NCBI RefSeq assembly: GCF_900458435.1
Contig: NZ_UHCT01000001.1
Coordinates: 1,426,001 to 1,490,000 of the forward strand
DNA length: 64,000 bases
Reading direction: 5' to 3'
From: Staphylococcus carnosus
GTDB lineage: Bacteria > Bacillota > Bacilli > Staphylococcales > Staphylococcaceae
The notes under the pieces are model-generated. The model worked only from the letters and a program-made list of their open reading frames with translations, made no database searches and was not told the origin of the DNA. The translations under genes and the position numbers were made by a program. Below, piece by piece: positions 3,436-64,000 of the stretch (the first letter of the stretch is position 1; each line of letters begins with the position of its first letter).

Positions 3436-3464
3436 AGATAAGAAAATAAAATAATAATGATATT

Positions 3465-3597
3465 CATCTTCGGGGTCGGGTGAAAGTCCCAACCGGCAGT
3501 AAATTAAGCCTGCGACCTGTATTTATTTTGTAAATATGGCTGATCTAGTGAGATTCTAGAGCCGACAGTATAGTCTGGATGGGAGAAGATGGAGGGT
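3465..3597 (+). promoter_or_regulatory. FMN riboswitch (RFN element)
   Basis: The hallmark RFN blocks occur in order: CTTCGGGGTCGGGTGAAAGT, CCCAACCGGCAGT, AAGCCTGCGACC, a variable arm, TGATCTAGTGAGATTCTAGAG, CCGACAGTATAGTCTGGATG and GGAGAAGATGG. This matches the six-helix FMN aptamer. When FMN is plentiful the element would shut down ribU. I see no terminator hairpin with a T-run between the aptamer and the gene. The expression platform may therefore be translational: TTCCTCC (3617-3623) could pair partly with the GGAAGGAG ribosome-binding site. Confidence 0.95.
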
Positions 3598-40437: not shown

Positions 40438-40837
40438 TGATATTTCGGGTAATCGCTATAGCGATATAGAGGAAAGTCCATGCTCACACAATCTGAGATT
40501 GATTGTAGTGTTCGTGCTTGATGAAACAATAAGTCAAGGCAATATGACGGCAGTGAAATAACCTAAGTTCTTTGAATATGGTTAGAATAGCTTGAAAGTG
40601 CCACAGTGACGTAGCTTTTATAGAAATATAAAAGGTGGAACGCGGTAAACCCCTCGAGTGAGCAATCCAAATTTGGTAGGAGCACTTGTTTAGCGGAATT
40701 CAACGTATAAACGAGGAAATCACCGTACATAATCGGTATTTCAGACAGATGGTTACCACCGGCGTACCAGTGCATACTAGTGCACGTGAAGAGTACTAAG
40801 GTACAGAACATGGCTTACAGAGATATCATTACTAGTT
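40438..40837 (+). ncRNA. rnpB: RNase P RNA, Bacillus type (B)
   Basis: Catalytic RNA of RNase P, which matures tRNA 5' ends. It has the universal 5' core GAGGAAAGTCCATGCTCAC, central GTGCCACAGTGACGTAGC and GGAACGCGGTAAACCCC blocks, AGACAGATGGTTACCACC, and the 3' core ACAGAACATGGCTTA. The ~400-nt length and the segment order fit type B of low-GC Gram-positives. The ends are estimated from the promoter and the terminator. Confidence 0.97.
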
Positions 40838-55129: not shown

Positions 55130-56599
55130 TTGGTTCAAAATCAAAATAATGAACAGTCTCAAAACCAAGAACAAAAAGACTTACATAACTCTCCGAAAAT
55201 ATTCAAAATTAAGCGTTGGAAATTTATCATTTTGTTAATAGCTATTATTTTAATAACTGTTATTTTAACAGTATTATCAACAATTGCTATATCACATAAA
55301 ATGAGCGGATTAGATGCAGATCAACGAAAATCTTTCAAAAAAGTAGAATCTGCGTACGGTACTTTAGCAAATGATTATTACAAACATCAAAATCAAGATA
55401 AATTATCAGAAGCTGCTATTGATGGAATGGTTAAAGAATTAAAAGATCCATACTCTCAATATATGACGAAAGACGAAACAAAATCATTCAACGAAGATGT
55501 TTCAGGTGATTTTGTAGGAATTGGTGCAGAAATGCAACAACGTAATCATCAAATTAGTGTAACAAGTCCTATGAAGGGTTCTCCTGCAGAAAAAGCCGGT
55601 TTAAAACCAAAAGATATTGTGAAGAAAGTTAATGGAAAATCTATTAAAGGAAAATCACTTACAGATGTAGTTAAAATGGTTCGCGGTAAAGAAGGTACAA
55701 CTGTAACTCTGACTATTGAACGTGCACATCAAGAACATACACTTAAAATCAAGCGAGATAAAATACATGTTAAAAGTGTTGAATATAAAAAAGAAGGGAA
55801 TGTAGGTATTTTCACCATAAATAAATTCCAAGACAATACAGCAGCTGAATTAAAAACAGGTATTAAAAAAGCACATAGTGAAGGTGTGAAAAAAATTGTT
55901 CTCGATCTGAGAAATAATCCTGGCGGCTTATTAAACGAAGCTGTAAAAATGTCGAATATCTTTATTGATAAAAATAAACCTGTAGTAAAATTACAAAAGG
56001 GTAATGAAACAGAAGTAGTGCGTGCACCAAGTGATGCTTTAAAAGAAGCTAAAGATATGCAAGTTTCTATTTTAGTTAATGAAGGATCTGCGAGTGCTTC
56101 TGAGGTATTCACTGGGGCAATGAAAGATTATGGTAAAGCTAAAATTTATGGTGAAAAAACATTCGGTAAAGGTATCGTACAAACTACTAAAGAATACAAA
56201 GACGGATCTTTACTTAAATATACTGAAATGAAATGGTTGACTCCAAAAGGTCACTATATACATGGTAAAGGCATTCAACCTGACGTTAAAATTGCTGCAC
56301 CTAAATATCAATCATTAAGCATGATTCCCGATGATAAGATTTTAAAAGAAGGTGACAACAATAAAAATGTTAAATCAATTAAAATTGGTTTAAAAGCTTT
56401 AGGTTATGATACTGGAGAGGAAAATAATGATTTTGATGGTACTTTAAAATCAGCAATTGAATCTTTCCAAAAAGATAATCAGCTTGAAGTAAATGGTACT
56501 TTTGATAAAGAAACGAATCACAAATTCACTGAAAAGTTAGTTGATAAATCTAGTAAAGATGATGAGGTTCTTAAAACTTTATTGAAAAAATTAAAATAA
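55130..56599 (+). CDS. ctpA: C-terminal processing protease CtpA (S41 family)
   Basis: Protein of 489 aa. Cytoplasmic Gln/Asn-rich start, one TM anchor (about 29-54), PDZ domain (about 120-205; PMKGSPAEKAGLKPKDIVKK), S41 protease domain with catalytic Ser in NEGSASASEVF and Lys in GEKTFGKG (Ser/Lys dyad), and a C-terminal peptidoglycan-binding domain (about 405-465; IKIGLKALGYD). It cleaves envelope proteins. TTG start behind AGAAAGGAG. S. aureus CtpA is of similar length and affects stress tolerance and virulence. Confidence 0.94.
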   Translation: MVQNQNNEQSQNQEQKDLHNSPKIFKIKRWKFIILLIAIILITVILTVLSTIAISHKMSGLDADQRKSFKKVESAYGTLANDYYKHQNQDKLSEAAIDGMVKELKDPYSQYMTKDETKSFNEDVSGDFVGIGAEMQQRNHQISVTSPMKGSPAEKAGLKPKDIVKKVNGKSIKGKSLTDVVKMVRGKEGTTVTLTIERAHQEHTLKIKRDKIHVKSVEYKKEGNVGIFTINKFQDNTAAELKTGIKKAHSEGVKKIVLDLRNNPGGLLNEAVKMSNIFIDKNKPVVKLQKGNETEVVRAPSDALKEAKDMQVSILVNEGSASASEVFTGAMKDYGKAKIYGEKTFGKGIVQTTKEYKDGSLLKYTEMKWLTPKGHYIHGKGIQPDVKIAAPKYQSLSMIPDDKILKEGDNNKNVKSIKIGLKALGYDTGEENNDFDGTLKSAIESFQKDNQLEVNGTFDKETNHKFTEKLVDKSSKDDEVLKTLLKKLK

Positions 56600-56612
56600 A
56601 GAGGCAAACCGT

Positions 56613-57125
56613 ATGATACGTACAGCTACACATAATGATTTAAAATCGATTTCAGATTTAACAGAAGATGCTAAGAAAATTATGCAACAAGATAACAACC
56701 CTCAATGGGATGAAAATTACCCTTTGATAGAGCATTTTGAAGAGGATATTGAAAGTCAATCTTTGTTTGTGCTAGAAGAAGAAAGTAACATATACGGCTA
56801 TATAGTTATCGACCAAAATCAGTCGAAATGGTATGATGAACTTGAATGGCCTATTGATAGAAAAGGCGGTTACGTAATTCATAGATTAGCAGGTTCTCCG
56901 GAATATAAAGGAGCAGCAACCGCACTTTTTGATTTCGCTGTAAAACGTGCATTAGATCATGATATTCATGTTCTTTTGACTGATACGTATGCAGTGAATC
57001 GTCGCGCACAAAATCTTTTTGAGAAATTCGGTTTTAAAAAAGTAGGCGAAGCTGATTTAGATTATCATCCTTTTGATAAAGAAGAACCTTTTTATGCATA
57101 TTATAGAATTTTAGAAGAAGAATAG
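56613..57125 (+). CDS. GNAT family N-acetyltransferase
   Basis: Protein of 170 aa with the GNAT fold: YVIHRLAGSPEYKGAATALFDFAV (acetyl-CoA-binding region, about 91-114), with the R/Q-x-x-G-x-G/A loop here as SPEYKGAA, and NRRAQNLFEKFGFKKVGE. The substrate cannot be predicted. It lies between ctpA (13 nt upstream) and murG (11 nt downstream), so all three may share a transcript. Confidence 0.85.
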   Translation: MIRTATHNDLKSISDLTEDAKKIMQQDNNPQWDENYPLIEHFEEDIESQSLFVLEEESNIYGYIVIDQNQSKWYDELEWPIDRKGGYVIHRLAGSPEYKGAATALFDFAVKRALDHDIHVLLTDTYAVNRRAQNLFEKFGFKKVGEADLDYHPFDKEEPFYAYYRILEEE

Positions 57126-57136
57126 AGGTATAAAAA

Positions 57137-58225
57137 ATGACGAAAATTGCATTTACTGGTGGTGGCACAGTCGGACATGTTTCAGTCAACTTAAGTTTGA
57201 TTCCGATTGCCCAAGAAAGAGGATACGAAGCTTTCTATGTAGGTTCTAAAAATGGAATTGAAAGAGAGATGATTGAATCGCAACTTCCAGGAATTCAATA
57301 CTTTCCAATTTCAAGCGGCAAGTTGCGTAGATACATTTCTGTAGAAAATATTAAAGATGTATTTAAAGTATTAAAAGGTGTTTTAGATGCACGTAAAGTA
57401 TTAAAAAAACAGAAACCAGATCTTCTTTTTTCAAAAGGCGGATTTGTATCTGTGCCTGTAGTAATTGCAGCACGTTCATTAAATATTCCTGTTGTAATTC
57501 ATGAATCAGATATAACACCAGGTTTAGCGAATAAAATTTCATTGAAATTCGCTAAAAAGATTTACACAACATTTGAAGACACTTTAAAATATTTGCCAAA
57601 GGAAAAGGCGGATTTTGTTGGGGCTACTGTACGCGATGACTTAAAAGAAGGAAATCGTACAAACGGCTTCCAACTTACTGGGTTTAATGATGATAAAAAA
57701 GTGCTATTAGTAATGGGTGGCAGTTTAGGCAGTAAAAAAATTAATGAATTAATACGTCAAAACTTGGATACTTTATTAAAAGAGTATCAAATCATTCATT
57801 TAACAGGCAGAGGTTTATTAGACGAAACAATACAACGCGAAGGATATAAACAATTTGAATTCGTAACTGATGAATTGACAGATTTATTAGCAATCACTGA
57901 CACAGTTGTCAGCAGAGCAGGTGCGAATGCAATTTATGAATTCTTAACATTAAATATCCCTATGCTGCTTATCCCATTAGGCCTAGATCAGTCACGCGGA
58001 GACCAAATTGACAATGCTAAGAACTTCCAAAATAAAGGTTACGCTGAAACATTACCTGAAGATCAAGCGAATACAACTAATTTTATAGAATCGCTGCATA
58101 AAATCGAATCTAATAGAAGTGATATTGAAAAACAAATGCATGAATATCACCAATTATTTACCAAAGAAGATTTACTTGATAAAATTCTGAAAGATACTAA
58201 TCAAAAGGAAACGAGGGAAAGCTAA
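57137..58225 (+). CDS. murG: UDP-GlcNAc transferase MurG
   Basis: GT28 enzyme of 362 aa making lipid II from lipid I on the inner membrane face. N-terminal FTGGGTVGHVSVNLSLIP (Gly-rich membrane/lipid-I loop), LLFSKGGFVSVPV, VVIHESDITPGLANK, and the donor site VMGGSLGSKKIN followed by VSRAGANAIYEFL. AGAGGT precedes the ATG. It supplies lipid II to PBP2, also encoded in this window. Confidence 0.96.
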   Translation: MTKIAFTGGGTVGHVSVNLSLIPIAQERGYEAFYVGSKNGIEREMIESQLPGIQYFPISSGKLRRYISVENIKDVFKVLKGVLDARKVLKKQKPDLLFSKGGFVSVPVVIAARSLNIPVVIHESDITPGLANKISLKFAKKIYTTFEDTLKYLPKEKADFVGATVRDDLKEGNRTNGFQLTGFNDDKKVLLVMGGSLGSKKINELIRQNLDTLLKEYQIIHLTGRGLLDETIQREGYKQFEFVTDELTDLLAITDTVVSRAGANAIYEFLTLNIPMLLIPLGLDQSRGDQIDNAKNFQNKGYAETLPEDQANTTNFIESLHKIESNRSDIEKQMHEYHQLFTKEDLLDKILKDTNQKETRES

Positions 58226-58849
58226 TTGAGCCGAATTAAAAGAATTTCATTAATTTTGGTATTCACTTTAATATTCAGTGTCATTGCTGCTTTCCATCAA
58301 AGTAGAATCGGCAACTGGATTGATACCGAAGTCTATGATTTAATTTATGCATCATATAGCGTAATCACAACAAGTATTTTTATGGGAGCAACTTGGGTTG
58401 GAGAAGTATTTTCAATGATTTGTCTTTCACTATGTGTTGTCAGTTATTTGTTATTACGTAAAATGAAAATCGATGCATTATTCTTTGCAATTGTGATGGC
58501 AGTTTCTAGTATTTCAAATCCAATTATGAAAAATACTTTTGATCGTGAACGCCCATCAAAATTACGCTTAGTTGAAATCGGCGGATATAGTTTCCCAAGC
58601 GGTCATGCAATGGGCTCTACTTCGTTTTTCGGAAGTATTATCTTTATTGCATCTCGCTATTTGCATGGAACTCCAAGAGTCATGATGACAGCGTTTTGTA
58701 TTTTCATGATTGCAATGATTTGTTTATCCCGTATCTATTTAGGTGTACATTATCCAACTGATATTATGGGCGGAATTACTGCTGGACTAATCTGTATCTT
58801 GACAGTTTCTGTGTTTTTCAAAGGTAAATTAAAACCTATCCGTTTTTAA
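58226..58849 (+). CDS. PAP2-family membrane phosphatase
   Basis: Protein of 207 aa with about six TM helices. PAP2 motifs: KNTFDRERPS (motif 1, KxxxxxxRP-like), SFPSGHAMGS (motif 2) and SRIYLGVHYPTDIMGG (motif 3), so the catalytic His pair and Arg are in place. It is probably an undecaprenyl-pyrophosphate or lipid phosphatase (annotated PgpB-like in S. aureus). TTG 58226 starts directly after the murG stop, with GAGGG before it; a lipid-carrier recycling role would fit its linkage to murG. Confidence 0.88.
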   Translation: MSRIKRISLILVFTLIFSVIAAFHQSRIGNWIDTEVYDLIYASYSVITTSIFMGATWVGEVFSMICLSLCVVSYLLLRKMKIDALFFAIVMAVSSISNPIMKNTFDRERPSKLRLVEIGGYSFPSGHAMGSTSFFGSIIFIASRYLHGTPRVMMTAFCIFMIAMICLSRIYLGVHYPTDIMGGITAGLICILTVSVFFKGKLKPIRF

Positions 58850-58861
58850 TTAGAATATAAG

Positions 58862-58912
58862 AAAGCATTCATGATAAATTCTCAAATGAGAAAACATCAT
58901 GAATGCTTTTTT
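58862..58912 (+). terminator. Terminator of the murG-PAP2 transcript
   Basis: AAAGCATTCATGAT pairs with ATCATGAATGCTTT, with an inner TTCTC/GAGAA stem, then a T-run. Confidence 0.93.
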
Positions 58913-58919
58913 CTTAATC

Positions 58920-59087
58920 AAAAAAACCGATTTTGCATTTACTAGCAAAATCGGTAAGTATGTCACGTTATGTATAACCATAACGTCAGTATTTACGGGC
59001 ATATATAAAAGGGGATATGAAAATGACCAATACTATAAGAACGAAATTGTGGGGGGATGTCTCATTTGGTATTGATAATCATTTTCA
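58920..59087 (-). ncRNA. isrR: IsrR-like Fur-regulated small RNA
   Basis: A complete minus-strand transcription unit of about 168 nt. It starts near 59087 below a near-consensus promoter. It ends in a perfect 11-bp stem, ACCGATTTTGC/GCAAAATCGGT (58926-58936 with 58945-58955), followed on the minus strand by seven Us. It carries three C-rich tracts: CCCCCC (59056-59051), CCCC (59014-59011) and GCCCG (59000-58996). An internal hairpin is ACGTTATG/CATAACGT (58965-58972 with 58979-58986). Two Fur boxes sit on the promoter. S. aureus IsrR, the iron-sparing sRNA, is also between arlR and a PAP2 (pgpB) gene, is ~170 nt, Fur-repressed and has three C-rich regions that pair with ribosome-binding sites of iron-rich enzymes (nitrate respiration, TCA). 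I assign it as its homologue; ends are estimated. Confidence 0.85.
59073..59087. promoter_or_regulatory. Fur box 1, over the sRNA start site
   Basis: TGATAATCATTTTCA matches the 7-1-7 Fur consensus TGATAATnATTATCA at 13 of 14 specified positions. It lies at the predicted transcription start of the minus-strand sRNA. Confidence 0.75.
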
Positions 59088-59093
59088 AGTACT

Positions 59094-59121
59094 ATTATAC
59101 ATTATTGATAATGATTGTCAA
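59094..59121 (-). promoter_or_regulatory. Promoter of the IsrR-like sRNA
   Basis: On the minus strand: TTGACA (59121-59116), a 16-bp spacer and TATAAT (59099-59094). Both hexamers are perfect sigma-A consensus. Confidence 0.9.
59106..59120. promoter_or_regulatory. Fur box 2, in the sRNA promoter spacer
   Basis: TGATAATGATTGTCA matches the Fur 7-1-7 consensus at 13 of 14 specified positions. It covers the spacer and the -35. It starts 33 bp from box 1, about three helical turns, so two Fur dimers could bind the same face. Confidence 0.78.
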
Positions 59122-59255
59122 TTAGAAAAGTAACTTTTTTGAATTTTTCTTTTCTGTAAGTTATTTACACAAAAATGAGTATCTTTAATTGCTAACTGTT
59201 TATTTTAAATACTTGATCTTAAGTTTATGATAAAATTTATTTTGAGGTGCTGACC

Positions 59256-59918
59256 ATGACAAAAATTTTAATCGTAGAAGATGAACAAAATCTTGCACGT
59301 TTTATAGAATTAGAATTGATACATGAAAATTATGAAGTCGATATTGAAAATGATGGAGCAGAAGGATTAAAGACCGCACTTTCTAAAGAGTATGATTTAT
59401 ATTTATTAGATTTAATGCTTCCTCATATGGATGGTTTAGAAATTTGCCGAAAAATTCGTGAAGTTAAATCAACACCTATTATCATTATTACTGCTAAAGG
59501 TGATACATATGATAAAGTGGCTGGTTTAGACTACGGTGCTGATGATTATATTGTAAAGCCGTTCGATATTGAAGAATTATTGGCAAGAATTCGTGCTACA
59601 CTGAGAAGACAGCCTGCCAAAGATACAATTACAATCAAAGGTATTGAGATTGATAAAGCGGCTTTTCGCGTTACAATCGACGGACAAGAACTTGAACTGA
59701 CAAAAACTGAATATGATTTATTACAATTGCTAACAGAAAACCTTAATCATGTTATGCAGCGAGAACAAATATTAAATCATGTGTGGGGTTATGATAGCGA
59801 GGTCGAAACAAATGTTGTCGATGTGTATATTCGATACTTGCGTAATAAATTAAAACCTTTTAATAAAGAGAAAGTAATTGAAACTGTTCGCGGTGTTGGA
59901 TATGTGATAAGACAATGA
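59256..59918 (+). CDS. arlR: Response regulator ArlR
   Basis: OmpR-type regulator of 220 aa. The receiver domain has E9/D10-type acidic residues (VEDEQN), phospho-acceptor D52 ([11 protein letters not shown]) and K in VKPFD. The winged-helix C-terminus ends [11 protein letters not shown]. With ArlS it governs autolysis, adhesion, capsule, agglutination and (through MgrA) virulence. ATG 59256 has GAGGTG 7 nt upstream; GTG 59247 is inside that site. Promoter hexamers between 59134 and 59240 are not convincing. It overlaps arlS by 4 nt. Confidence 0.96.
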
Positions 59919-61279
59919 AACAACGTAAATTAAAAACACAATGGATGCTTGTCACAACGAGTATTACTTTTCTTATTATATTTATCTTTAGTCTTGTCAT
60001 CATTTATTTTTTAAGTATTACGTTACGAGATAATGAAATTAATGATGCAGAAAAAAGCGCTGATAATGTATCTTCTTTATTAGCAACAAAATCATTGGAA
60101 AATGTTACGCCGCTTGATTTAAATGCTTCATTAGGAAACTTCCAAAAAGTGATGTTATTTGATGAAGAAGGTAAAAAAATAGCCGATACTTCAACGATGA
60201 GTGAATATATAAATGATACAAAACAAATAAAACCCTCAAAGTATCATAGTGTTTATGTAGTTCATTTAAAAAACGCTAATTTTTTAATTGTTTCACATCC
60301 GATAGATACTGATAAATTCCAAGGATATTCTGTAATTATTCATTCTCTTGCAAGTTATGATAGCGTTATGCATTCACTTGTTATATTATCAGTACTATTT
60401 GGTGTTATAGCAATTATTGTGACATCAACAATCAGCTATATATTTTCAGCACAGATTGCTAAGCCGATTGTTATAATGGCCAATAAAATGCGGAAAATCA
60501 GAAGAGATGGTTTCCAAGAGAAATTAGAATTACCTACTAATTATGAAGAAACTAATGATTTGATTGATACATTTAATGATATGATGTTACAAATCGAAGA
60601 ACTCTTTAATCAGCAAACACAATTTGTAGAAGATGCATCTCATGAGTTGCGAACACCTTTACAAATTATACAAGGTCATTTAAATCTAATAAAACGATGG
60701 GGTAAAAAAGACCCTGAAATTTTAGAAGAATCCTTAAATATAACGATTGAAGAAATGAATCGTATTACCAAGCTTGTAGAAGAACTATTAATGCTGACTA
60801 AAGAATCTACTTATAAAGATGCTAAAGATGTAGAACCAGTCAATGTAAATAATGAAATAAATTCACGGATTAAATCACTTAAACAATTACATCCTGATTA
60901 TACTTTTACATTCAATCCATCCAATAAACCGATAATCTTAGATATTAATCGTTATCAATTAGAGCAAGTATTATTAATTTTCTTAGATAATGCTATTAAA
61001 TATGATATACGTGATAAAAAAATTGATATTTCCACTACTTTGAAAAATCGTCAAGCAACCATAGAAATTACAGACCATGGTTCTGGAATACCTAAAGATG
61101 AATTAGATTTTATTTTCGATCGATTTTATCGTGTTGATAAATCACGTTCAAGAAAACAAGGTGGAAATGGGTTAGGGTTATCAATTGCTAGCAAAATAGT
61201 TAGTTTATATAATGGCTCAATCCAAGTCAAAAGTGAAGTGAATTCTTACACAACTTTTAGTATTACTTTCAACATCTAG
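59915..61279 (+). CDS. arlS: Sensor histidine kinase ArlS
   Basis: Sensor kinase of 454 aa. TM1 at about 13-35, an extracytoplasmic domain of ~115 aa, TM2 at about 152-176, HAMP, then HisKA with [20 protein letters not shown] (His phospho-acceptor in SHELRTP), and HATPase with [14 protein letters not shown] and [11 protein letters not shown]. All catalytic boxes are present. The ATGA overlap with arlR couples translation. Confidence 0.96.
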
Positions 61280-61356
61280 TAAACGTGCAACTTATTACCT
61301 TAATAATAATTATACTCAATTTGTTTACTTTGAAATTATAGTTTATAAATGTTTAT

Positions 61357-61382
61357 AAAGAGCCGTCATTACGGCTCTTTTT
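61357..61382 (+). terminator. Terminator of arlRS
   Basis: AAAGAGCCGT pairs with ACGGCTCTTT around CATT, then a T-run. Confidence 0.93.
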
Positions 61383-61427
61383 CTATGTGTCATTTAGTTA
61401 TTCTCTCTTTAATTTGTGAAGATTTAA

Positions 61428-61454
61428 TGATATTATTTATTTGTAAGCGTTTCA
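61428..61454 (+). promoter_or_regulatory. odhA -10 element and cre-like site
   Basis: The extended -10 TGATATTAT (61428-61436) is followed at 61442-61454 by TGTAAGCGTTTCA. This resembles a CcpA cre site but is one base short of the 14-bp consensus. A repressor there would sit at the start site. CcpA repression of TCA-cycle genes is well known in Gram-positives; this instance is inferred. Confidence 0.45.
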
Positions 61455-61475
61455 ATATATTGTGGAGGGAGTAAT

Positions 61476-64000
61476 ATGACGAAAGACAAACAGGTAAGTG
61501 AAGCACCTGTAAATTTCGGAGCTAACTTAGGGGTTATCATAGATTTATATGATCAATATCTACAAGATCCAACTTCAGTCTCTGAAGATTTACAAATTTT
61601 ATTTAGTACAATCAATAATGACAACAGAGAGGTGGCTGCGAGTCCTGCATCAAGTTCTAGCGATAGTACAATTAAACAAGTTATGCGTTTAGTTGATAAT
61701 ATCAGACAGTATGGGCACTTGCAGTCAGATATTTATCCGGTCAATCGACCAGAACGTAAGCACGTTCCAAAATTGACAATTGAAGATTTTAATCTTTCTA
61801 AAGATGATTTAGAAAAAATTTCTCCAGGAATAGTATCAGATCATTTTTCTGATATTTATGACAACGCATATGAAGCAATTAAACGTATGGAGAAACGTTA
61901 TAAAGGACCAATTGCTTTTGAATACACACATATCAATAATAATACGGAGCGTACATGGCTCAAACGACGTATTGAAACGCCATATAAAGCAGATTTAAAC
62001 AAAAACCAAAAAATTAATCTTTTCAAAACATTGGCACATGTAGAAGGATTTGAAAAGTATCTTCATAAAAACTTCGTAGGGGCAAAACGTTTCTCTATTG
62101 AAGGTGTAGATACACTTGTACCAATGTTGCAAGAAACATTAAGACGCGCAGCAAAAGAAGAAATCAAAAACATTCAAATTGGTATGGCTCACCGTGGCCG
62201 TTTAAATGTGTTAACTCACGTTTTAGAAAAACCATATGAAATGATGATTTCTGAATTTATGCACACAGATCCAATGAAATTTTTACCTGAAGATGGAAGT
62301 CTAGAATTGACATCTGGTAATGCTTGGACAAGTGATGTTAAATACCATTTGGGCGGTATCAAAACAACTGATACTTATGGTACAGAACAACGAATTTCAC
62401 TCGCAAACAACCCAAGTCACTTAGAAATTGTAGCACCTGTTGTATTAGGTAAAACAAGATCTGTTCAAGATGACACTCATGAAGGCGGAAAAGTTCAAAC
62501 TGATTTCTCAAAATCTATGCCGATTTTAATCCATGGTGATGCAGCATATCCAGGACAAGGTATCAACTTTGAAGCAATGAATTTAGGTAACTTAGATGGA
62601 TATTCAACTGGGGGCTCATTGCACATTATCACGAATAACCGAATCGGTTTTACAACTGAAGCTAGAGACGGACGTTCTACAACGTACTCTACTGACGTTG
62701 CAAAAGGTTATGATATTCCAATCATGCATGTGAATGCTGACAATGTTGAAGCAACTATCGAAGCAATTGATATTGCAATGGATTTCAGAAAAGAATTCAA
62801 TAAAGATGTTGTTATCGACTTAGTAGGGTACCGTCGTTATGGTCATAATGAAATGGATGAACCGTCAATTACTAACCCGCTTCCTTACCATGCGATTCGC
62901 AAACATCCTACTGTTGACAAAATTTATGGTGAACAACTTGTAGATGAAGGTGTTATTTCTAAAGAAGAAATGGAACAAACACTGGACGATGTTCAAAAAG
63001 AATTGCGTAATTCGCATGATAAAATTGATAAAAATGACAAAACAACAACAAAAGATATGTCTAAACCTGAAAGTGTTGAAGAACCACTTCAACCAGATAA
63101 AAATAATGTATCTTATGATGATCTTAAAACAATTAACGATGCTTTATTAACTTATCCAACTGGCTTTGAAGTATTGAAAAAACTAAACAAAGTTCTTGAA
63201 AAACGTAGAGAGCCATTTGAAAAAGAAGACGGCTTAGTAGATTGGGCACAAGCTGAACAATTAGCATTTGCTACAATCATGCAAAATGGCACACCAATCC
63301 GTTTAACAGGTCAAGATAGTGAACGTGGTACATTCAGCCACAGACACGCAGTATTGCATAATCCAGACAACGGTGACGAATATGTTCCATTGCAAAATGT
63401 TCCGAACCAAAAAGCTTCATTTGATGTACACAACTCACCATTATCTGAAGCTGCAGTAGTAGGTTTTGAATATGGTTATAATGTAGAGAACAAGGGTACT
63501 ATGAATATTTGGGAAGCACAATATGGTGACTTCGCAAATATGGCACAAATGATGTTCGACAACTTCTTATTCAGCAGTTATGCCAAATGGGGAGAACGTT
63601 CAGGATTAACACTATTCCTACCTCATTCTTATGAAGGACAAGGACCTGAACATTCATCAGCACGTCTAGAACGTTTCTTACAACTTTCTGCTGAAAACAA
63701 CTCTACAGTTGTTAACTTATCAAGCAGTGCCAATTACTATCATTTGTTACGTGCACAAGCAGCAAGCTTAGACACTGATGCTATGCGTCCGTTAGTAGTA
63801 ATGTCACCAAAAAGCTTATTGAGAAATAAGACTGTTGCAGACACAATCGATAAATTTACAGAAGGTTACTTCAAACCAATCTTGCCTGAAGCACATGATG
63901 AGAAAAAAATTAAAAAACTTATTTTGGCTTCTGGTAAAATGTTTATCGACTTAAAAGAACGCTTGCAAAAAGAACCAGATGAATCTATTTTACTTGTAGC
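61476..64000 (+). CDS. odhA: 2-oxoglutarate dehydrogenase E1 component, 3' end beyond window
   Basis: Thiamine-diphosphate-dependent E1 of the TCA-cycle 2-oxoglutarate dehydrogenase complex. The first 841 codons are visible; the S. aureus protein is about 930 aa, so roughly 90 residues are missing. N-terminal [20 protein letters not shown], the E1 region [20 protein letters not shown], ThDP/Mg site [18 protein letters not shown], and the pyrimidine-domain [28 protein letters not shown] precedes ATG 61476. The odhB gene would be expected just downstream. Confidence 0.96.

Follow-up and report, generated by a model that had tools for sequence, protein, structure and literature searches.

What does the stretch between pgpB and arlR encode on the minus strand in Staphylococcus carnosus, an organism of food and of the laboratory and thus easy to study? 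An earlier note, made from the sequence alone, had proposed a Fur-controlled small RNA (sRNA) homologous to IsrR of S. aureus. We followed up that proposal in the window, by which we mean the whole 64-kb stretch of DNA analysed, and among relatives of the organism. The answer for the window is an ordinary one, a known iron-sparing RNA. On the basis of sequence, predicted structure, family membership, synteny, conservation and predicted pairing, we read the locus, with a probability of about 0.95, as the Staphylococcus isrR gene, whose RNA would be controlled by Fur and would spare iron through pairing of its C-rich regions (CRR1 to CRR3) with Shine-Dalgarno regions; hairpin H1, whose loop contains CRR1, may be its oldest part. 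The features are as follows.

59116..59121, minus strand: isrR -35 element TTGACA, exact sequence match
59094..59099, minus strand: isrR -10 element TATAAT, 16-bp spacer, exact sequence match
59106..59120, no strand assigned: Fur box 1, TGATAATNATTATCA with one mismatch, overlapping the -35 element and spacer
59073..59087, no strand assigned: Fur box 2, TGATAATNATTATCA with one mismatch, at the inferred transcription start
58922..59088, minus strand: putative isrR transcript (~167 nt), its start placed by the promoter and its end by the terminator
59018..59087, minus strand: hairpin H1, the loop of which contains CRR1, from the predicted fold and pairing in 36 relatives
59051..59056, minus strand: CRR1 (CCCCCC) in the H1 loop, from sequence and in silico acnA pairing
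59011..59014, minus strand: CRR2 (CCCC), from sequence and in silico pairing
58997..59000, minus strand: CRR3 (GCCC), from sequence and in silico pairing
58963..58988, minus strand: hairpin H3, from the predicted fold
58926..58955, minus strand: isrR intrinsic terminator, 11-bp stem and T run, from a terminator scan
59256..59918, plus strand: arlR, divergent neighbour of isrR
58226..58849, plus strand: pgpB (PAP2-type phosphatase), convergent neighbour of isrR
61476..64000, plus strand, running off the window: sucA/odhA, reported as a likely IsrR target

The isrR locus

The putative gene is flanked by pgpB and arlR, which both run on the other strand. The convergent neighbour is one that we take to be pgpB from synteny, with the locus of PMC9410917 for comparison. 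ArlR from the window is 93% identical to S. simulans ArlR, the top value among the best 80 of 548 named arlR loci, which probably places the organism in the carnosus/simulans group. The perfect TTGACA-16-TATAAT promoter described in the earlier note is present and is the sole exact match in the window at spacers of 15-18 (chance mean 0.26). Because 22 of 100 shuffled windows also have at least one, the promoter taken singly is unremarkable, and it is the combination of elements that is remarkable. The two one-mismatch Fur boxes of the note are likewise there, and they are the only two sites across the 64 kb within one mismatch of TGATAATNATTATCA (chance mean 0.19), a pair that was reached in 2 of 100 shuffles. 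Fur box 2, read as RNA, is part of the 5' arm of H1.

Folded alone, positions 58922-59088 give -42.7 kcal/mol (z -6.1), equalled by 0 of 200 shuffles; the predicted fold has H1, H3 and the terminator and is without H2. The three C-rich tracts and the strong terminator were also found as described, the latter belonging to a class about equally common by chance, with 3 terminator-like sites in 56000-62000 vs 2.4 in shuffles.

Several other RNA elements were noted in the window. At 58862-58909, between pgpB and isrR, a hairpin with 14-bp perfect outer arms is followed by a T run and is probably the pgpB terminator; it was read directly from the sequence and is absent from the results of the terminator scan. 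An FMN riboswitch lies at 3462-3594 and RNase P RNA at 40441-40822, both on the plus strand. A match to Rfam S414 (RF02895) at 57665-57839 (minus) is antisense to murG and recurs at the corresponding site upstream of arlR in three other loci (L037, L038 and L039); conserved murG coding sequence may be the simple cause. The second contig of the genome (L116, 5450 bases) looks like one of the small plasmids of staphylococci that carry rep and a cadmium transporter gene, and S. aureus cadD/rep plasmids ranked first in a plasmid search with it.

One claim of the note, that the minus strand has no open reading frame, was mistaken. An ATG frame of 50 codons runs on that strand at 58850-59002, beginning at CRR3 and passing through the terminator, and plus-strand ORFs of 58 and 38 codons are present too, so that a short protein-coding gene might be proposed to account for the conservation of the region. 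Of the 37 Staphylococcus loci in which the same ATG was found (the window counted), 31 have a frame of 3-5 codons from it, so that the frame is not a conserved gene; what is conserved across relatives is the promoter, the Fur boxes, the H1 arms and the C runs, not the frame. We reject the coding reading of the minus strand and give a short gene on either strand almost no credence as the source of the conservation. The accompanying warning that ORF calling loses isrR is plausible for gene callers, but the Rfam model does detect it.

Identity as IsrR

A covariance-model comparison (cmscan) with Rfam RF02578 (tsr25, which is IsrR) matched 58922-59097 on the minus strand over the full model, 1-181 of 181, at 63.9 bits against a gathering cut-off of 63 (E 3.4e-13 for the local stretch), and a search of the genome with this model found a single copy. 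The model, the pgpB-arlR locus and the promoter with its Fur boxes agree on the IsrR identity that had been proposed. S596/Tsr25 of S. aureus, since renamed IsrR, agrees with this gene in locus, promoter, Fur boxes and C-rich regions (PMC9410917). The S. aureus RNA and that of the window share the strand, both Fur boxes, three C-rich regions, the terminator and, going by the fold predicted here, H1 and H3, at lengths of 174 and ~167 nt, respectively, as well as predicted pairing with acnA, gltB2, nasD/nirB, narG, miaB and sucA. They differ in that H2 is missing from the predicted fold here and fdhA pairing is not above background, and the RF02578 score of the window is low beside the 230.7 bits of the best genome.

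Could a different Fur-regulated sRNA, non-orthologous to IsrR, have converged on the same place? The score stands just 0.9 bits above the cut-off, and repeated origin of Fur-regulated C-rich sRNAs has been argued for FsrA, RyhB and PrrF (PMC9410917). Against this, the match is full-length, synteny and strand are shared in 38 of 39 named Staphylococcus loci (within the best 80 of 548 arlR loci), all 84 genomes of the genus have an RF02578 match, and the FsrA model has no match in this genome; we consider such convergence very improbable. The proposal of an IsrR homologue also depended on conservation of the C tracts and terminator among staphylococci, and, beside the 84 of 84 RF02578 matches, the C runs are kept in 36 of 36 aligned relatives, with the GCCC of CRR3 in 33 of 36 rows (missing from L029, L038 and L069). 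Over the same 36 relatives, 90.7% of H1 cells are paired, vs 32-57% with the partner strand slid; covariation in H1 is slight, with change on both sides in 2 of 12 pairs.

FsrA of Bacillus deserves separate mention. Like IsrR, it is Fur-regulated and C-rich and represses iron enzymes including aconitase, and its dependence on the FbpABC chaperones is a published difference from IsrR (PMC9410917). The FsrA model RF02273 matched 4 of 151 class genomes, 2 of them above the cut-off, this genome not being among the four, and a covariance model of our own (R1, described below) had no credible match on two FsrA loci, L112 and L113 (best E 0.064, on the opposite strand). A GTTCCCC..CCTCT-like motif is common to FsrA in L112 and the Macrococcus and Mammaliicoccus units; FsrA at L112:1501-1583 has GTTCCCCAACCCCTCT, near the GAGTTCCCCCTCT loop of those units, and this motif likeness is probably convergence on Shine-Dalgarno sites. 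With no RF02273 match here and just a short C-rich motif in common, we rejected FsrA as a relative of IsrR, and the overall likeness is most likely convergence. RyhB of enterobacteria and PrrF1/PrrF2 of Pseudomonas also have a Fur-controlled iron-sparing role, PrrF being a tandem pair, as are the Mammaliicoccus units described below; according to PMC9410917, RyhB and PrrF have no homology to IsrR.

The same source reports isrR in every Staphylococcus genome screened, with S. carnosus TM300 and S. piscifermentans among the orthologue genomes, and Hfq-independent action in S. aureus (PMC9410917). Fur control and target repression have been shown in S. aureus (PMC9410917, PMC13343841, PMC11257911, PMC12607789). 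As both the gene and its Fur control are already published across screened Staphylococcus genomes, the feature itself is therefore not new, and by analogy with S. aureus the same Fur control and target repression would be expected in this species.

Reach of the family

We defined a unit as the promoter, the H1 5' arm and the C run upstream of arlR, and looked for it in the best 80 of 548 named arlR loci, where it was present in 61. In Staphylococcus it lies on the strand opposite to arlR in 38 of 39 loci, the sole miss being one whose sequence ends 169 bases upstream (L020). Mammaliicoccus (4 of 4 loci) also has it on the opposite strand, as two tandem units, and Macrococcus/Macrococcoides (10 of 10) and Salinicoccus (9 of 13) have it on the same strand as arlR. 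The unit is absent upstream of arlR in the remaining 14 of these loci. Extra regex hits in L014 (-955), L035 (-1209), L043 (-970), L049 (+311), L046 (minus, 1353) and on the plus strand of L042 were rejected, being either without unit structure or a palindromic Fur box.

The first Mammaliicoccus unit (L037, L040, L043, L044) has H1 and CRR1 and is without CRR2, CRR3 and a strong terminator, so that read-through into the second unit would be possible. CRR2 and CRR3 are also absent from the Salinicoccus and Jeotgalicoccus units. A relocated unit was found at eight loci (L171-L178), in the Jeotgalicoccus-like group (g89) and in three genomes of a group that we call g90, where a glyoxalase-like gene lies upstream of it and an HxlR-like regulator is close by (both named by eye). 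The Jeotgalicoccus-like loci have an extra Fur-box-like repeat upstream of the unit's promoter. In L176 and L177 the relocated unit is followed by tRNA genes, and L171-L173 have a cspA-thermoregulator match close to it.

RF02578, which was built independently of the sequences in the R1 analysis, matched 92 of 108 family genomes at E <= 1e-3, 74 of the 108 above the Rfam cut-off; by genus, it matched all 84 genomes of the own genus, all 8 of a second one and none of the 16 from three others. R1 was trained on 36 core sequences (23 from Staphylococcus, 4 Mammaliicoccus second units and 9 from Macrococcus/Macrococcoides), and it matched 108 of 108 Staphylococcaceae genomes, whose genera were in its training, and a sister family. 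Across the order, 133 of 157 genomes were matched, with no match in the 15 listed genomes of family f42. In the class sample 40 of 398 were matched, comprising 36 of the own family, 3 of family f43 and 1 other (G327). Two R1 hits were seen in 7 of 8 Mammaliicoccus genomes, and the eighth has a degenerate second (E 0.057).

Matches outside Staphylococcus and Mammaliicoccus might be Fur-box dyads that mimic H1, rather than IsrR. The hit outside the order, in G327 (L200), is such a dyad, made of two inverted Fur boxes that lack a C-rich loop, and we rejected it; it adjoins a gene that, judged by eye from its translation, we take to resemble a siderophore-type synthase. In G247, from another family, an H1-like unit between pgpB and arlR (L179:1998-2072, minus) has a loop without a C run and is possibly an ancestral or a degenerate form. 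Moreover, RF02578 stays below its cut-off on all Macrococcus, Salinicoccus and Jeotgalicoccus units given to it; it had no match at L172, L175, three g90 units, three Salinicoccus units and L179, and on 13 upstream loci it matched one, the Mammaliicoccus locus. On the other side, the units carry the promoter, the C-rich loop and, mostly, a recognised terminator, in order, and beyond families f1 and f43 only 1 of 398 class genomes yields an R1 hit. Salinicoccus, outside the R1 training set, nevertheless gave 9 of 9 units at E 1.2e-8 to 1.4e-5, and, of the five Jeotgalicoccus-like units, three have an RF02578 match that stays under the cut-off (L174 at 38.3 bits, E 1.1e-4; L171 at 30.7 bits, E 0.0089; L173 at 27.2 bits, E 0.071). 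We judge mimicry by Fur-box dyads improbable and take these units as probable IsrR. A weak match to Rfam tsr24 (29.7 bits, cut-off 50, E 0.0092) was seen upstream of arlR in Jeotgalicoccus marinus, at L049:1745-1916 (minus).

In the literature, PMC13343841 describes IsrR as conserved across the genus, with no homology to iron-regulated sRNAs elsewhere, related Bacillales included. 'Staphylococcus stepanovicii', now Mammaliicoccus, was used as a source of an isrR orthologue in PMC9410917, whose authors consequently knew one copy from that genus, and a blastn orthologue search over Staphylococcaceae genomes is described in PMC11257911. Among the papers searched, none linked IsrR with Mammaliicoccus by that name, and, among the matches listed, none was on isrR with Macrococcus, Salinicoccus, Jeotgalicoccus or sciuri. 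The comparative part is probably new, and the comparison of relatives suggests that IsrR is older and more widespread than those sources describe.

Predicted targets in this genome

We paired the start regions (-35 to +18) of genes identified with family models, plus that of sucA in the window, with the CRR1 loop and with the stretch covering CRR2 and CRR3, using duplex energies that ignore mRNA structure. Verified S. aureus targets are given in Table 1 of PMC13343841, and sucA is called a likely target (PMC13343841, PMC11257911). The 82 background starts, which include nirB itself, other starts of the same stretches and some doubtful automatic calls, paired at least as well in 0 cases for gltB2, 1 for nirB (itself), 1 for acnA, 3 for narG, 6 for miaB and 7 for sucA. 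The gltB2 pairing spans CRR2 and CRR3 at -29.2 kcal/mol, the 550-aa match being taken as gltB2 from its length, and the sucA start region pairs with CRR1 in silico. The expectation that C-rich pairing would reach iron-enzyme mRNAs is supported computationally for these six genes and not for fdhA, a verified S. aureus target, which is equalled or surpassed by 38 of the 82 background starts and so does not stand above background.

Seven targets (fdhA, acnA, miaB, gltB2, narG, nirB and sucA), picked from published lists after the start sequences had been seen, have a mean of -20.6 kcal/mol, reached by shuffled C-rich segments in 0 of 300 cases (shuffle mean -14.8), and compare with the 82 starts at a Mann-Whitney p of 2e-4. 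Outside this mean are gltB (1508 aa; 23/82), leuC (40/82) and nirD (65/82), none of them above background, as well as nirC (14/82), a gene at L134:10575 (4/82) and the other start of narG (3/82).

Co-variation of the CRR1 loop and the aconitase site

For 30 genomes from eight genera, acnA and sucA were found by family searches, starts were picked by Shine-Dalgarno strength, and H1 loops were taken from the same genomes; sucA counts use 29 of the 30, as its start was not found in G003. In Staphylococcus the loop AUCCCCCC goes with the acnA site GGGGGGAU, the two pairing over 8 nt in G041 and in the genome of the window and over 6-7 nt in the four remaining genomes. Mammaliicoccus and Macrococcus have the loop GUUCCCCCU and the site AGGGGGAAC, with 7 to 10 nt in 17 genomes and at least 9 in 15 of them. 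The corresponding loops and sites are GCCCCCUCU and AGAGGGGGC in Jeotgalicoccus (2 genomes), AGCCCCC and GGGGGCU in Salinicoccus (3 genomes), and C6AAAAUUAGU and ACUAAUUUUAGGGGG, with one internal mismatch, in the g90 group (2 genomes).

When sites were assigned to the five loop types, the own-loop assignment of acnA was the best of 120 permutations by both length and energy; with five types only, p therefore cannot fall under 1/120. For sucA (29 genomes) it was best of 120 by energy and 7 of 120 by length. Among the controls, the ranks of 120 by length and energy were 96 and 32 for arlR and 54 and 39 for arlS, both from 35 named loci, another set than the 30 genomes, with less G-rich sites. 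The gene after acnA ranked 49 and 40 in 28 of the 30 genomes, the automatic call being a different gene in G291, G274, G275, G285 and G271. pgpB was dropped as a control, with 28 starts and none in one clade. The fair control is sucB, because AGGGGGA sites are present in all 23 Staphylococcaceae genomes; it ranked 16 and 13 and leans toward its own loop as well, without reaching the top.

The pattern could be due to chance, or to the mere G-richness of Shine-Dalgarno sites. The loops fall into just five types, several of them pair well with the Jeotgalicoccus acnA site, sucB tends in the same direction and, taken singly, the acnA sites of Staphylococcus, Salinicoccus and Jeotgalicoccus each have some foreign loop that gives a better energy than their own. 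However, sucB falls short of the top although it is comparably G-rich in Staphylococcaceae, and arlR, arlS and the gene after acnA have no own-loop preference. We regard chance or G-richness as an unlikely explanation, if one that keeps real weight, and prefer co-change of the CRR1 loop with the acnA site.

According to PMC9410917, the first 50 nt of IsrR are unchanged on binding and CRR1 is suggested not to pair, acnA apparently being outside that set of targets. CRR2 is involved in most IsrR interactions (PMC13343841), and acnA was the sole previously validated target enriched in a pull-down (PMC12607789). The co-change that we deduce from sequence comparison sits badly with the suggestion of a non-pairing CRR1 (PMC9410917). 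References 61 and 89 of PMC13343841, both on acnA and listed in its Table 1, may already bear on CRR1-acnA pairing.

Discussion

By analogy with S. aureus, we suggest that when iron is sufficient Fur would sit on both boxes and block the isrR promoter, and that when iron is scarce the ~167-nt IsrR would be made. Its C-rich regions would then pair with G-rich Shine-Dalgarno sequences in the mRNAs that encode aconitase, glutamate synthase, MiaB, the nitrite and nitrate reductases and, probably, 2-oxoglutarate dehydrogenase, thereby blocking translation and sparing iron. The oldest working part may be H1 with its CRR1 loop, which would pair with the acnA ribosome-binding site.

Beyond the window, we lean somewhat towards the view that IsrR is an ancient sRNA under Fur control, shared by Staphylococcaceae and a sister family that includes Salinicoccus and Jeotgalicoccus, and that in its core hairpin a Fur box forms the 5' arm and the CRR1 loop pairs with aconitase mRNA. 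Loop and aconitase site would have co-changed several times, and the gene would have been flipped, moved and tandemly duplicated with its function kept. CRR1 may thus be an old acnA-pairing element, with CRR2 and CRR3 having widened the target set later. If so, the comparison yields a clear prediction, contrary to the published suggestion (PMC9410917), that CRR1 is the aconitase-pairing element; and, with IsrR traceable across two families, co-change of an sRNA and its target becomes testable.
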